From the NCBI GenBank assembly GCA_018262715.1, contig JADFDS010000004.1:1-64000 (forward strand): 64,000 nucleotides of DNA. The letters run 5' to 3'. Position numbers and translations under genes: made by a program. The notes below the pieces were generated by a model. It saw only the letters and a list, made by a program, of their open reading frames with translations, was not told where the DNA came from and did no database searches. Source of the stretch: Bacteroidota bacterium. Lineage in GTDB: Bacteria > Bacteroidota > Bacteroidia > Bacteroidales > VadinHA17. The stretch's first letter is position 1. Each line of letters starts with the position of its first letter. Below are positions 28,715 to 46,722 of the stretch, one piece after another.

Positions 28715-30490
28715 TCAGGCCGTCTTCATCCAGTTGACAAGGCCCTTCTTCTCTATGATTGCCTTAAGCTCCGGAGGCAGTGGTTCAAATCTGAACTGTT
28801 TCTCTCCTACCTTCAGCATACCCCTGTCAAAGTCTATCTCCACCGCATCACCTGCCCGGTACGCCTCCACAGCCTCCCGGTGCACTATCAGCGGCAGCCC
28901 CTGGTTTATAGAGGAGCGGTAGAAGATACGGTTGACTGACTTGATTATGACAGCCCTGATTCCCAGATGGGCGAGCCCCACTGACGGGTGTTCCCTGGAG
29001 CTGCCACACCCGAAGTTATCACCGGCAATGATAGTGTCACCGGCTTTTGCATTTGCACTGAACGAGGGATCAAAGTCGCCGAAGAGCAATGGCAGAATTG
29101 CAGCCGCATCAGAACTCATGACTGAGTAAGTGTGCTTGCCGGCAAACATCTGGTCAGTGTTCAGGTTGTCAACATCTGCATAATTCCATACATTGCCTTC
29201 CTTCCTGTTCTCTCCCTCCCTGATGGTGTTGGTCTGGCTCTGGGGAGGATTGAACGGAAATACCTCGTCACCCCTTGTAACCCTGGGGTCGGTAATAACC
29301 CCGGTGACAGCCGATGCAGCCACAGTGGCAGGCGAAGCAAGGTAAATGGAAGCCTCCTTGTTACCCATCCGGCCCAGGAAGTTCCTGTTGGCAGTAGAGA
29401 TGACCGTATGACCGCTGGCAGGTATCCCCTGGCCTGTGCCCAGGCACGGACCGCAGCTGGGACTGAGAATATTGGCGCCGGCCTCTATCAGGTCAGTGAC
29501 TATACCCTCCCTGATGGCCTGAAGATAAATCTCCTTCGATGCAGGGATGATATGAAGCTGGAAGCCCGGCTTCACCTGAGCACCCCTGAGCACAGATGCT
29601 GCTGTCCGGAGATCCTCAATCCTGCCGTTGGTGCAGGTGCCTATCAGCCCTTCATGCACAACGGTGCCGGCCACCGAAGCAACCGATTTTATATTGTCAA
29701 CATGATGAGGAGCTGCCACCAGCGGAAATACCTTCGACAGGTCAATGGATATGCGGCTTTTGTATTCCACACCCTCATCAGCCCAGATGCCGGGACTGTT
29801 TGAACCGATGAACTTCTGCAACACCTCATCATCCGGGAAGACGGCATTCTTGGCCCCCATCTCAGATGCAAGATTTGCAACAGTCATTCTCTCGCTCACG
29901 CTGAGCGAAGCAACCCCGTCTCCATGAAATTCAATAGACATGTAATTGGCGCCGTCAGAGCCCAGCATGCCAATGATCCACAGCGACAGGTCCTTTGCGC
30001 TGACACCCGGACGTAACCGGCCGGTCAGATCAATCCTCATTGAAGGGGGAACGAGAAACCAGGTTTCGCCTCTCTTCCAGATTCCTGCTGCCTCGGTGCG
30101 GTCTATTCCAGCCGCAAGGGCATTGAAGGCTCCTGCCGTACAGGTGTGGCTGTCAGAACCGACAATAATCATTCCCGGACGGGCATGATTTGACATCATC
30201 TGATGGCAGATACCCATCCCTGAGTCGTAAAACTTCCTGATTCCCTGTCCTGCCACTATGTTCCTTATATCCTGGTATTGCGTAGCCAGTTTGGCATCAG
30301 CAGGCGGGGCATTGTGATCGAGAACGATGACCATCTGGTCAGGATCTGACACCTTCTCCCCTCCCATTTTTCTGAATGTCTGGAAGATGCTGGAGGTGTT
30401 GTCATGCGTCAGTATCAGATCGGGTTTCCTGAATACTACCGCCCCCTCAGGAGCGCCCAGTACCTTTTCAACAAATGTCCTTGGTTTCAT
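28715..30490 (-). CDS. Aconitase-family hydro-lyase, fused large and small subunits (LeuC-LeuD type), copy 1
   Basis: This 591-aa protein joins the [4Fe-4S] large domain (residues 1-400) with the small swivel domain (about 430-591). Iron-sulfur ligands are the cysteine in GTCTNGRIED and the two in SPSCGPCLG. The swivel domain has the substrate loop GDNFGCGSSREHP and an NTDQMF start. IPM isomerase, homoaconitase and dimethylmalate dehydratase share these motifs, so the substrate cannot be fixed. It lies directly downstream of a second, diverged fusion (18 nt apart), so the two are probably one transcript. No leuA, leuB or citrate synthase is nearby. Confidence 0.85.
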   Translation of the reverse strand: MKPRTFVEKVLGAPEGAVVFRKPDLILTHDNTSSIFQTFRKMGGEKVSDPDQMVIVLDHNAPPADAKLATQYQDIRNIVAGQGIRKFYDSGMGICHQMMSNHARPGMIIVGSDSHTCTAGAFNALAAGIDRTEAAGIWKRGETWFLVPPSMRIDLTGRLRPGVSAKDLSLWIIGMLGSDGANYMSIEFHGDGVASLSVSERMTVANLASEMGAKNAVFPDDEVLQKFIGSNSPGIWADEGVEYKSRISIDLSKVFPLVAAPHHVDNIKSVASVAGTVVHEGLIGTCTNGRIEDLRTAASVLRGAQVKPGFQLHIIPASKEIYLQAIREGIVTDLIEAGANILSPSCGPCLGTGQGIPASGHTVISTANRNFLGRMGNKEASIYLASPATVAASAVTGVITDPRVTRGDEVFPFNPPQSQTNTIREGENRKEGNVWNYADVDNLNTDQMFAGKHTYSVMSSDAAAILPLLFGDFDPSFSANAKAGDTIIAGDNFGCGSSREHPSVGLAHLGIRAVIIKSVNRIFYRSSINQGLPLIVHREAVEAYRAGDAVEIDFDRGMLKVGEKQFRFEPLPPELKAIIEKKGLVNWMKTA

Positions 30491-30508
30491 ATGATGATAT
30501 GTCTTACG

Positions 30509-32323
30509 TTAAATTTTACCTAATAAACCACCCTTTTTATAAATCTCATACTGAGCATCATAGAATGGGTTAATTAAAGTCGATAATCCGTTGCGTTCAT
30601 TCACTGCCTCGCCGGTCAGAATATTGACTGATATGACATCCTGGTCGCGGAGGTCTATCTTTTCAAAGCTGGAGTATGTAAGTACGGGGAATGCAGCGTT
30701 AATGGCATTGCGCTCATAGATGGCGCCGAACGATTGCGCAACGACGGCCTGTATGCCCAGTGAGACAAAGCAGTCAACCGCCTGCTGGCGTGAGCTGCCG
30801 CTTCCAAAGTTTTTCCCGGCAATAATGATATCGCCTGCCTGCGCCTTCTTTGCAAAATCCCTGTAACCTTCCAGGTTGTCAAATGCATACTGGCCCATCT
30901 CGCGTATGTCAGTGATGGCCAGGTACCGGTTGTGGAAGATCATGTCAGTGTCGATGTTGTCACGTTCTATCAGCCATACCTTTCCGCGGATAACGGTGGG
31001 TCTGTCAGTTTGCGTGCTCTTAACAGGGGCAGCGGCCGAAGGCTGTGTTGCGCTGAATTTGAATTCAGGCGGGGTAACCGGAATCATTTCAGGAGTTGTT
31101 ATATATCCTGCAATCGCTGATGCTGCCACTACGGCCGGAGACGCGAGGAATACGCTTCCCTGTCCCTGCTTGCCAGGGAAATTCCGGTTCCCTGTGCTGA
31201 CGGTGACCTCACCCTTGCCGTTCTGACCTACCTGTCCGGCTGCACATCCAGCGCAACCGGCATTTGAGACCAGCGCCCCTGAATCCTTGAAGATATCCAT
31301 AAGTCCTTCATCAAGACACTGTTTCCATACGGCATCAGTTGATGGCACAATCTTGAGTACCACGCCCGGTGCCACTTTTCTGCCCTTCAGTATCTCAGCC
31401 GTCGCTCTCATGTCTTCGATACGGCCGTTGGTACAGCTGCCGATAAAGGCAGAGTCTATCCTTGTGACGGGGAGCTGGCTGACCCCTACCGTGTCATGTG
31501 GTTCGCCAGGCCGAGCCACCATCGGTACGAAGGTGCTGACGTCAATATCTGCTGTTATTGCGTAGGTGGCATCCGCGTCAGCGTGGACAGGTTCAAACGG
31601 TGCGCGAGCGCGAGCACGGCAATACCCGATAATTGCCGGCGTTGGCGGGAAGAGAATTATGATTGCTCCCATCTCTGTTGCCATGGAGGCTATGGTGATC
31701 CGTTCATCAAGCGACATCCGTTCCACTGCATCACCATATAGCTCAATGCTGTAACCCAGCAGAGTGTTGGCGCCATACATGCGCAGCAGGTTCAGAATGA
31801 CATCCTTGGCAGCCACACCCTCAGGCATCCTGCCCTTCAGTGTGAGCTTCACCGATGCCGGGACCTTGAACCATACCCTCCCGCTGTTCCATGCAGCAGC
31901 AATGTCCATGTCACCCATTCCCTGACCGAATGCACCCACAGCACCCAGGATGTTTGCATGTGAATCGGTTGATACCGCTGTGGCTCCCGGCCATACATAG
32001 CCCTCCTCGATGAGAAGGTGTGTGCCTATGCCTGCATCAATGTCATATACCTTTATTCCGTTACCACGGGCATACTGCCTGCATATGTGCTGGTTAACGG
32101 CATATTTCTGGTCTGAACCTGTAGGATTGCAGTCGAACGTGAAGAGAGTCTTTTCAGGGTCATCAACCTTCAGTCCAAAATCGTTCAGGTTCTTGACGAC
32201 ATTGGCGCCGCCGAAGTCCCTGGCTGCACGGGCGTCAATTGTAATGTCAACAATGTCACCCGGTTTTACGCTTTTGTATTTGGAGTGAGCGGCAATGATT
32301 TTTTCGGTTATGGTCATTCCCAT
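30509..32323 (-). CDS. Aconitase-family hydro-lyase, fused large and small subunits, copy 2
   Basis: This 604-aa fusion starts at the ATG at 32323 (MGMTITEKII). An in-frame ATG 17 codons upstream (32374) lies beyond the TAAATTTG box at 32353-32360, so it is not used. The large domain has STDSHANILG, SCTNGRIEDM and NAGCAGCAAG, where copy 1 has PSCGPC. The small domain has DNIDTDMIF and KNFGSGSSRQQA, where copy 1 has GCGSSREHP. The different substrate loops suggest two different substrates or two steps of one pathway, for example isomerisation of 2-alkylmalates. The cluster cysteines are conserved in both, so both should be active enzymes. Confidence 0.83.
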   Translation of the reverse strand: MGMTITEKIIAAHSKYKSVKPGDIVDITIDARAARDFGGANVVKNLNDFGLKVDDPEKTLFTFDCNPTGSDQKYAVNQHICRQYARGNGIKVYDIDAGIGTHLLIEEGYVWPGATAVSTDSHANILGAVGAFGQGMGDMDIAAAWNSGRVWFKVPASVKLTLKGRMPEGVAAKDVILNLLRMYGANTLLGYSIELYGDAVERMSLDERITIASMATEMGAIIILFPPTPAIIGYCRARARAPFEPVHADADATYAITADIDVSTFVPMVARPGEPHDTVGVSQLPVTRIDSAFIGSCTNGRIEDMRATAEILKGRKVAPGVVLKIVPSTDAVWKQCLDEGLMDIFKDSGALVSNAGCAGCAAGQVGQNGKGEVTVSTGNRNFPGKQGQGSVFLASPAVVAASAIAGYITTPEMIPVTPPEFKFSATQPSAAAPVKSTQTDRPTVIRGKVWLIERDNIDTDMIFHNRYLAITDIREMGQYAFDNLEGYRDFAKKAQAGDIIIAGKNFGSGSSRQQAVDCFVSLGIQAVVAQSFGAIYERNAINAAFPVLTYSSFEKIDLRDQDVISVNILTGEAVNERNGLSTLINPFYDAQYEIYKKGGLLGKI

Positions 32324-32352
32324 GATCGAGATGTTTTTAGTTGGTTCAGAGG

Positions 32353-32360
32353 CAAATTTA
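32353..32360 (-). promoter_or_regulatory. Bacteroidota -7 box (TAAATTTG) of the aconitase-family pair
   Basis: On the minus strand TAAATTTG matches TAnnTTTG and lies 29 nt upstream of the ATG at 32323. A -33 box is not evident at the standard spacing. It decides the start of the downstream gene. Confidence 0.45.
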
Positions 32361-32432
32361 GCAATAGGGATCAAACTCCGGCATGAATAATATCATCAGT
32401 TGAAAGTGATTTTCCCGCAGAAAGGCAGGATG

Positions 32433-33281
32433 TCAGTTCCGGTATTGCGCCCGGTAGTCACGTGCTGACATCCCGGCATGCTTGCGGAACTGCTTATTGA
32501 AGTTGGAAACGGTTGCAAATCCGCATTCAAATACAATTTCGTTTATCTGGTGGTCGGTTTCCCGGAGCAGGTAACAGGCCTTGTTGGTACGAACCTGGTT
32601 CACATAGTCGACAAATCCGCTTCCGGTACTGCGTGAAAAGAAGCGGCTGAATGAATGGGGGCTCATCTTTGCCACCACGGCGACCTCCTTAACAGGAATC
32701 GGGCGGTAAAAATTATCCCTGACAAAAGAACATACTTCAGTCAGGCGACTGTCAGTAATCTCATGCACCCCTTCGCGGTTCTCGCCTGACAGAATCTTGA
32801 ATCTCGGTGCCGCACAGAGTATTTCGAGCAGCCTGAAGAAGCTGACCATCTTTTTCATCCCGGTATCGGACAGCAGGCGCCGCATGGGCTCCTCTGCAGC
32901 TTCGCCCGTCTCGGGCGGAAAGGCAATCCCCCGGCCGGCATTTTCCAGCAACCGCCTCAGGTCAGCCATCTCGAATTGCGAAAGCATTGAATCGCCAAGC
33001 GAATCACGCCTGAAGTGAACCATTATTGCATGCCTGCCCGTTTCATTTTCATCCTTCCTGTAAAAGTTCCAGAAATGCCTGAGGTCAGGACCGTACATCA
33101 CCAGGTCATAACGGTCGAAGAGCTCCACCGAATCACCTGCAACACGGGTCCCGTTGCCAGAAATATTCAGAACAATTTCATATTCGGGATGCAGGTGGAG
33201 AAAGCCGCTCTCGTTATCCATCCATGCGGCCCTGAATCCTGAGCCGTCGTCATGCCGGATGCTGATTATTTCAGGTATCAT
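32433..33281 (-). CDS. AraC-family transcriptional regulator
   Basis: This 282-aa protein has an N-terminal cupin-like sensing domain (HLHPEYEIVLNISGNGTR, residues 28-45) and a C-terminal double helix-turn-helix (about 180-282). The second helix-turn-helix contains IVFECGFATVSNFNKQFRKHAGMSA, here named in two parts: IVFECGFATVSNFN and QFRKHAGMSA. The arrangement is that of sugar- or xenobiotic-responsive activators. The target is unknown. It lies beside the structured RNA locus, transcribed away from it. Confidence 0.88.
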   Translation of the reverse strand: MIPEIISIRHDDGSGFRAAWMDNESGFLHLHPEYEIVLNISGNGTRVAGDSVELFDRYDLVMYGPDLRHFWNFYRKDENETGRHAIMVHFRRDSLGDSMLSQFEMADLRRLLENAGRGIAFPPETGEAAEEPMRRLLSDTGMKKMVSFFRLLEILCAAPRFKILSGENREGVHEITDSRLTEVCSFVRDNFYRPIPVKEVAVVAKMSPHSFSRFFSRSTGSGFVDYVNQVRTNKACYLLRETDHQINEIVFECGFATVSNFNKQFRKHAGMSARDYRAQYRN

Positions 33282-33394
33282 ACTAATGGATTTAATGTCA
33301 GAGGAATAATTGGCATCATATTCAGTCTAAAATTACACAATCCTGTTCTAATTAGCAACCGGTTACAAACTACCTGAATTTTTTTCTGAAATTG

Positions 33395-33426
33395 TTTGCA
33401 AAGTTGAGGTATATGTATTACATTTG
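33395..33426 (+). promoter_or_regulatory. Bacteroidota promoter of the structured RNA
   Basis: TTTG (33395-33398), a 20-nt spacer and TACATTTG (33419-33426) fit the TTTG-N19-20-TAnnTTTG consensus. The start would be near 33431, a few nucleotides before the long stem. Confidence 0.7.
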
Positions 33427-33431
33427 TGGAA

Positions 33432-33620
33432 GTGATGAAATAAAAGAGGAGAGTAAGGGTTACTTGTGGGAATCAATAGGATTGTATTGCAGACATTGAC
33501 TTTCACATGGACCTATAGGCTGACTACCATAGGTTACTTCCTTTTATCAGACAGTAGATTCCGGGATTATCTCATAAGCCCGTTCCTTAAAGTACCACGG
33601 TAACCCTCTCCTCTTTTTTC
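33432..33620 (+). ncRNA. Structured non-coding RNA, possibly 6S-like (family unknown)
   Basis: This region fills most of the 353-nt gap between the AraC and BioG-like genes. A 22-bp terminal stem pairs AAAAGAGGAGA (33442-33452), GGGTTAC (33457-33463) and GTGG (33466-33469) with CCAC (33595-33598), GTAACCC (33600-33606) and TCTCCTCTTTT (33607-33617). A T-rich run follows directly (33614-33624, one C inside). Inside are an ACCTAT/ATAGGT hairpin (33511-33534), a GGAATC/GATTCC closing stem (33469-33474 with 33557-33562) and a GGGaTTATctcATAAgCCC hairpin (33563-33581). A good promoter precedes it. It lacks tmRNA and SRP motifs. The size and closing stem fit 6S RNA, but a leader of the next gene is an alternative. 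Confidence 0.6.
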
Positions 33621-33634
33621 TTTTCCTCTACCCG

Positions 33635-34336
33635 ATGAAAACATTCCTCCGTAGATTTGAGAACAACAGAGATCTTGTTATTCTCTTCGGTACCTGGGGA
33701 ATTGATGAAAAAGCATTCTCCAACCTCTGCACCGACAACCACGACTTTATTCTTTTTTACAACTATTCGGCCGATGAGCCACTGATACTGCCGGAGATGA
33801 AGACCTACCGGCGAGTTACTGTCATCGGCTGGTCACTGGGCGTATGGGCCGCTGAGTACTACAGCAGGAAGCTTGGGATAAAACCTGATCTTACCATAGC
33901 CATCAATGGAACACCCGTAGCCGCAGATGACAAGTATGGCATACCTCTCAGGATTTTTGAAGCCACCCTTGAAAATATCACGAACTACAGCATGGGTAAG
34001 TTCTACCTCAGGCTCTTCGGGACAAGGAGCCAATTTGAACTAAACCGCGCCTACATACCTACACGCACTGAAAAATCACTCCACGATGAGCTCAGGTGGC
34101 TCTACAACCGGATGATGGAACCGGTGGAAACCGGGTTTGTATGGGATTATTCGCTTATCGGTTCGGAAGACCGTGTCTTCAGGGCTTCAAACCTTACAAG
34201 CTACTGGTCGATGCACCCTGAGACAAGGCAGATAATGGTTGAAGCACCACACTATCTCTTCGATAACTGGAATTCACTCGAGGAACTGATAAGGTATGTG
34301 AGACGATTCCGGCTCTCACCGTTCAGAAACAAATAG
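33635..34336 (+). CDS. BioG-like (DUF452) alpha/beta hydrolase
   Basis: This 233-aa protein resembles BioG, a pimeloyl-ACP methyl ester esterase that finishes the pimelate moiety for biotin synthesis. It starts MKTFLRRFENNRDLVILFGTWG and has the nucleophile motif GWSLG near residue 67, with a histidine near the C-terminus (APHYLFDNW). Typical DUF452 members have this length. No other bio genes are next to it, so biotin function is inferred only from family similarity. The start lies 10 nt beyond the U-tract of the structured RNA, so the mRNA may be read-through from it. Confidence 0.72.
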   Translation: MKTFLRRFENNRDLVILFGTWGIDEKAFSNLCTDNHDFILFYNYSADEPLILPEMKTYRRVTVIGWSLGVWAAEYYSRKLGIKPDLTIAINGTPVAADDKYGIPLRIFEATLENITNYSMGKFYLRLFGTRSQFELNRAYIPTRTEKSLHDELRWLYNRMMEPVETGFVWDYSLIGSEDRVFRASNLTSYWSMHPETRQIMVEAPHYLFDNWNSLEELIRYVRRFRLSPFRNK

Positions 34337-46432: not shown

Positions 46433-46465
46433 CACTTTTGTTCCCGAAAGCTCCTTCAACAGGAA

Positions 46466-46655
46466 ACATCTGGCAGGTCTTCTGACTCATCCCTACTCAC
46501 CGGGCCTTCCCATCCGCCAAATGGCGGACAGTGGCAAGGATTCCGGCTGTAATGATCCGCCGACAGGCGGAACGGGCTTCACAGCAGCGGGTACTGTCCC
46601 TGATTCTGACAGGGTTCCCTTTTCACTGCCGGGACCTACCGGCAGCACCAGAATG
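46466..46655 (-). ncRNA. Cobalamin riboswitch
   Basis: On the minus strand the leader of btuB holds the conserved cobalamin riboswitch elements in order: GGGAA near the 5' end, AATCAGGGACAGTACCCGCTGC (named here as GACAGTACCCGCTGC), GCCACTG, GGGAAGG and GATGAGTCAGAAGACC, ending with the B12 box. A -7 box TACCTTTG sits at 46659-46666. Binding of adenosyl- or other cobalamin should reduce expression of btuB and the downstream genes. Confidence 0.92.
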
Positions 46656-46658
46656 GTA

Positions 46659-46666
46659 CAAAGGTA
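46659..46666 (-). promoter_or_regulatory. Bacteroidota -7 box (TACCTTTG) of the btu locus
   Basis: On the minus strand TACCTTTG matches TAnnTTTG and lies just before the riboswitch 5' end. A -33 box is not clear. Confidence 0.5.
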
Positions 46667-46722
46667 ATGATTGGAAGGGTTAATCGCCCCTGAAAATTAT
46701 CAACAATGTGATGCAGGACTGT

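Follow-up and report, generated by a model that had tools for sequence, protein, structure and literature searches.

Within the 64,000-nt stretch of DNA analysed here (the window), two tandem aconitase-family genes lie beside a gene for an AraC-type regulator (28715-32374, minus strand), and bioG, encoding a pimeloyl-ACP methyl esterase (33635-34336, plus strand; PF04301, E=5.5e-33), is the syntenic downstream neighbour of a predicted RNA gene that we call RNA-A. RNA-A is on the plus strand, and its promoter, the RNA itself and a U-run all fall within 33395-33620, a stretch that contains no protein gene. The promoter has the layout TTTG-N20-TACATTTG, with a -33 element TTTG at 33395-33398 and a -7 element TACATTTG at 33419-33426, and is of the Bacteroidetes primary sigma type (consensus for the -7 element as in PMC7366714). 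Among relatives, the -7 motif TAnnTTTG was found at 65 of 69 loci, and a TTG counterpart of the -33 element was located 15-25 nt upstream in 65 of 65, mostly at 19-20 nt. Reading from this promoter, transcription would be expected to start at about 33431-33434, and we infer the ends of a ~187-nt transcript (33432-33619), the 5′ end from the promoter. The closing stem, P1, pairs 33442-33469 (P1a, 33442-33451; P1b, 33456-33463; P1c, 33466-33469) with 33595-33617 through 10, 8 and 4 base pairs, with small bulges, and leads into a terminator-like U-run (33614-33619), 15 nt past which lies the ATG of bioG (33635). The promoter, the 22-bp closing stem ending in a T-run, the lack of protein genes and the distance to bioG had all been described in the initial annotation, and all were confirmed in the window. 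The closing stem and U-run recur at most loci, as judged by sequence only; a local terminator scan reported no terminator at RNA-A because the scan permits loops of 3-8 nt only.

Enclosed by P1, the plus strand contains, in order, a 30-nt block 1, AGGATTGTATTGCAGACATTGACTTTCACA (33478-33507); a variable hairpin P3 (ACCTAT/ATAGGT; 33511-33534); a conserved block 2, CCTTTTATCAGACAGTAGA (33540-33558), which includes the 15-nt part TTATCAGACAGTAGA; a hairpin P4 (CGGG/CCCG and TTAT/ATAA; 33562-33582); and UCCU (33584-33587), the 3′ strand of P2, which pairs with AGGA at 33478-33481. The sequence UAUUG within block 1 (33485-33489) is opposite CAGUA within block 2 (33552-33556), and CAGACA is present in both blocks. 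Three internal hairpins had been claimed initially, and comparison backed two of them, P3 and P4.

The single-sequence folding energy of RNA-A is ordinary (z -0.85; 42 of 200 shuffles matched or bettered it), and therefore comparison among relatives had to decide whether the structure is real. Among 41 distinct sequences, two-sided changes were detected in 22 of 51 pairs, compared to 9.6 in shuffles, and none of 500 shuffles reached any of five measures of covariation. The structure was named by hand and then counted, so that the naming rests on our own reading; with P1-P4 and UAUUG/CAGUA included, 89.3% of cells were paired, compared to 39-56% when the strands were slid. Two-sided changes were seen in P1 (helices 1, 2 and 4), P2 (helix 5) was paired in 95.9% of cells, P3 (helix 7) was formed by the majority type and has different stem sequences in other genera, and P4 corresponds to helix 9. 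An RNAalifold consensus for the 41-sequence alignment was poor (19 pairs) because of local misalignments and was set aside. All 30 columns of block 1 and the 15 nt of TTATCAGACAGTAGA are invariant in 41 of 41 distinct sequences, and this includes bases that the search pattern does not require. A protein-coding origin of block 1 was ruled out by the invariance of every third position. The full-length RNA shows no variation in the UAUUG/CAGUA helix, which is for this reason supported only by the permuted copies described below.

Within the genus, RNA-A is 97.3% identical, compared to 54.1% for the upstream sequence, 90.9% for the -7 box, 66.7% for the spacer to bioG and 83.9% for the start of bioG. 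A DNA search of 60 related genomes located RNA-A in 21 of 22 genomes of the genus, with weaker matches present in other genera of the family. Searching one genome per species (84,980 species) with a pattern that combines portions of both blocks returned 71 stretches, all from Bacteroidales or Bacteroidetes MAGs, with one match per stretch; two of these, L057 and L086, belong to a single genome, which thus has two copies. In nearly all genomes RNA-A is single-copy and syntenic. A covariance model (R2), in which the outermost stem is off register by one in some rows and which was used for searching only, placed RNA-A in 41 of 118 relatives and 6 of 62 genera, all of one family. The block 1 pattern matched nothing outside the family among 393 genomes of the order; neither the block pair nor block 1 was found in viral contigs, no convincing block 1 match was seen in a plasmid collection, and a literature search for the block sequences found none. 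Four early DNA hits (L027-L030) were discarded as isolated chance matches in apparently coding sequence with the rest of the RNA missing. RNA-A reaches the gathering score of no listed Rfam family. Elsewhere in the window, a cobalamin riboswitch lies at 46455-46667 on the minus strand (91.9 bits). Fold energy alone proves nothing here; because RNA-A is conserved and covarying, with a promoter motif at 65 of 69 loci, we are highly confident that it is a real, free-standing small RNA gene, as the initial proposal of a new structured RNA with its own promoter and U-tract had it.

A possible trace of the transcript itself comes from a single-stranded RNA phage record from activated sludge (BK014122.1; L175), positions 1-135 of which are identical to the RNA-A of L086. 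The match begins 11 nt past the -7 box TTTG and runs through block 2, after which the record continues with a hairpin of the kind usual at phage 5′ ends. The record is probably a chimeric assembly of RNA reads, of metatranscriptome type; read in this way, it would mean that RNA-A was present as RNA in the sludge sample. This one, indirect record is consistent with transcription of RNA-A in that sample.

The length of RNA-A, its closing stem, its two opposed conserved strands and its small 3′-side hairpin are all features that would suit the 6S RNA of this lineage, an identity that the initial annotation had considered. An Rfam covariance search gave no 6S-type hit at E<=10 in 33280-33700. The Rfam 6S-Flavo model passed its cut-off in none of the 60 related genomes and gave sub-threshold hits in five of them, and from the alignment of these five we built a 6S-type model (R1), which detected exactly one 6S-type copy in 53 of the 60 relatives, among them every one of the 22 genus genomes. 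In the source genome (G000) this copy lies outside the window on the minus strand (C4, 84787-84922; 67.8 bits), and its identity rests on model R1, there being no direct Rfam hit. Some R1 hits also weakly match Bacteroidales-1 (RF01693), which Rfam annotates as '6S-Bacteroidales RNA suggested', and sub-threshold hits to RF01685 were seen too; judged by these matches, the 6S-type RNA of all 22 genomes is related to 6S-Flavo and Bacteroidales-1. RNA-A itself has no such hits to RF01685 or RF01693, coexists with a separate single-copy 6S-type RNA and is missing from genera that possess the latter. RNA-A is distinct from 6S RNA, and the reading that it serves as the 6S RNA of the lineage is almost certainly wrong. 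As a by-product, model R1 provides a means of detecting 6S-type RNA in 53 of 60 relatives where 6S-Flavo passes its cut-off in none.

At most loci the gene order is aconitase, aconitase, AraC-type regulator (minus), RNA-A (plus), bioG (plus), BrkB (minus) and ComB-type (plus), the aconitase pair being conserved with RNA-A across genera, and bioG lies downstream of RNA-A in 63 of the 65 loci with enough sequence. RNA-A might thus be a cis-acting leader of bioG, as had been suggested initially, its closing stem being a terminator that is opened to admit transcription into bioG, perhaps via pairing of GUGGGAAUCAA (33466-33476) with UUGACUUUCAC (33496-33506). In the source genus and a few others the gap between RNA-A and bioG is 10-22 nt and holds no promoter, and in the source genus bioG is probably reached by read-through from RNA-A. 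Within the family, no bioG was found outside the genera with RNA-A, and 8 genomes without RNA-A also have no bioG, the one case of bioG without RNA-A being an incomplete genome (G009) in a comparison that included several incomplete genomes. The alternative pairing forms 10 of 11 pairs in 25 of 41 sequences, compared to 0.9% of shuffles, but falls to 7-8 of 11 in divergent members; being conserved in part only, it was rejected as an anti-terminator. In other relatives, the gap extends up to 313 nt, and among the 43 gaps longer than 60 nt, 31 hold a TAnnTTTG motif past the terminator, mostly ~60 nt before the bioG ATG, whereas shuffles of these gaps gave a mean of 5.4 and a maximum of 13. Furthermore, RNA-A is intact and bioG is missing at two loci (L061 and L096, the latter from genome G008). 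With 31 of 43 long gaps holding a separate promoter motif and two loci without bioG, RNA-A is not the 5′ UTR of bioG at every locus. Since synteny extends on both sides of RNA-A, adjacency to bioG says little, and other elements that contain block 1 adjoin unrelated genes. Overall, the leader reading is tenable for the source genus, where no separate bioG promoter is recognisable, and does not hold generally, and we regard it as unlikely to explain RNA-A; the near-absence of bioG without RNA-A in the family leaves a possible link between the two.

When up to 3 mismatches were allowed, block 1 was found at further sites in the family (a reversed-pattern control gave 1 hit in 117 genomes). Eighteen sites in 12 genomes (L135, L167, L168, L207-L213, L216, L217, L219, L222, L224, L227, L230 and L231) are short or decayed terminator-like hairpins, in which block 1 occupies the loop, the stem has ~9-12 pairs and T's follow; several of the stems are mutually unrelated. 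In L230, L224, L211 and partly L135, block 2 immediately precedes block 1, so that the order found in RNA-A is circularly permuted, and in L230 the sequence CAGUA-UUG-UAUUG would close a hairpin. Many of the other short elements represent a repeat that measures up to ~270 nt and has a second hairpin, and, as members of one repeat family, several of them are not independent. Judged by eye from sequence, their neighbours vary and include a papain-like gene, a nuclease, TIR-like genes (L168) and plasmid-type ParA/SSB genes (L231). The same endonuclease-like gene (MKRLL...) adjoins repeat hairpins in L167, L213 and L217, after the hairpin in one genome and before it in others, as if the two had moved together. 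The assemblies of 2 of the 12 genomes (G460 and G468) contain no full-length RNA-A. It could be argued that a mobile repeat has block 1 as a DNA site and that RNA-A is an old copy of this site in the host, as the short elements are multicopy (5 in genome G465), some are decayed, several lie in the ~270-nt repeat and L231 is beside plasmid-type genes. RNA-A, however, combines covarying stems with a promoter and a terminator, and nearly every genome that has it carries a single, syntenic copy; we consider this origin very improbable.

The second hairpin of the repeat carries AGCACGAGG..GCAGCGAGAC, which is the sequence of another RNA, RNA-B, and several short elements are followed by a hairpin bearing the RNA-B loop. 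RNA-B is a hairpin RNA of ~90 nt with a conserved loop, AGCACGAGGAAATGCAGCGAGACATA (loci L263-L292 and L293). In the source genome it lies outside the window, downstream of a fabG-type gene (C39, 184101-184123, minus strand), with a TATATTTG box upstream, a GCAGGGCGCU/AGCGCCCUGC stem and a T-run. RNA-B is mostly single-copy and was found in 74 of 117 genomes of the family, in exactly the six genera that have RNA-A, and was absent from the other families sampled; five loci scanned against Rfam gave no match passing a cut-off. Its stem sequences, read by eye, change together between genomes. Some genomes, such as G088 and G492, have RNA-B and neither RNA-A nor bioG, and the shared distribution of the two RNAs may reflect a single clade event. 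Pairing between RNA-A and RNA-B was no better than in shuffles, and block 1 resembled the RNA-B loop and block 2 in the sense orientation only marginally (P 0.02-0.03, mononucleotide shuffles), a result given no weight as proof.

From these observations, we infer a module of blocks 1 and 2 together with a protein partner and a titration effect. The primary-sigma promoter would give rise to a ~187-nt transcript ending in the long closing stem and U-run, and the closing stem would frame a compact module in which block 1 faces block 2 through UAUUG and CAGUA, with P3 at one end and P4 on the 3′ side. This invariant module would bind one factor in trans, most likely an RNA-binding protein, which RNA-A would then sequester or carry. 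We favour a common binder over a target because the copies of block 1 are same-sense, not antisense, and lie in the loops of unrelated stems, and we propose that the factor is shared because block 1 hairpins travel with the RNA-B loop; the short block 1 hairpins and RNA-B would thus bind the same factor as RNA-A. The design of RNA-B matches this, as it too is a hairpin with a conserved loop, has its own TATATTTG box and is confined to the same six genera. We give a trans-acting regulatory RNA whose module binds a shared factor a probability of about 0.45, and protein binding or titration as its mechanism is put forward tentatively, at a little under even odds.

The main competitor is that RNA-A is a base-pairing small RNA, in which block 1 would be a long seed for mRNAs and the short hairpins would be sibling or 3′-UTR small RNAs with the same seed. 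The long invariant stretch and its display in the hairpin loops of the short elements would fit this, and sibling small RNAs that share a seed are of a known kind, but 30 invariant nucleotides exceed the usual seed length, block 2 is just as conserved as block 1 and accompanies it in some elements, and the source genome contains no second match, sense or antisense, at up to 3 mismatches in 24 nt. We consider a seed function rather doubtful, and propose a protein as the first choice of partner, base-pairing as the second and a role as bioG leader as the third. More speculatively, and with low expectation, the six genera could share a two-RNA circuit, in which RNA-A and RNA-B offer their modules to one RNA-binding protein and miniature hairpins, comprising block 1 or permuted block 2 and block 1, several followed by the RNA-B loop, have been repeatedly acquired, both at the ends of genes and on a plasmid-like contig, to act as decoys or tags. 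If this were true, tag hairpins would place new genes under the RNA-A/RNA-B circuit. RNA-A and RNA-B are unlisted RNAs, the former near-invariant, of uncultured Bacteroidales from digesters, fens and sludge, and the permuted and miniature copies amount to naturally occurring minimal forms of the module, so that the search for its partner and the mapping of its structure are open to direct tests.

Compared with known systems, RNA-A shares with 6S RNA (RF00013, RF01685 and RF01693) its length class, long closing stem, free-standing gene and two conserved strands that face one another, but it matches no 6S model and occurs in genomes that have a separate 6S-type RNA. In the source genus, RNA-A resembles attenuation leaders and riboswitches in having a terminator-like stem just before a biosynthesis gene and a possible alternative pairing; in contrast to these, a separate promoter motif precedes the gene in most long-gap relatives, and the RNA outlasts the gene. 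Families of sibling small RNAs that share a seed exist, and the RNA-A set is like them in that several RNAs per genome share one exposed block, but differs in consisting of one large single-copy RNA and short terminator-like hairpins, some of them permuted. CsrB and CsrC are protein-titrating RNAs with an array of GGA loops. RNA-A would resemble them in its proposed mode only, the holding of a protein by repeated motifs (CAGACA in both blocks); unlike CsrB and CsrC, it has no array of GGA loops and two copies of the motif only.
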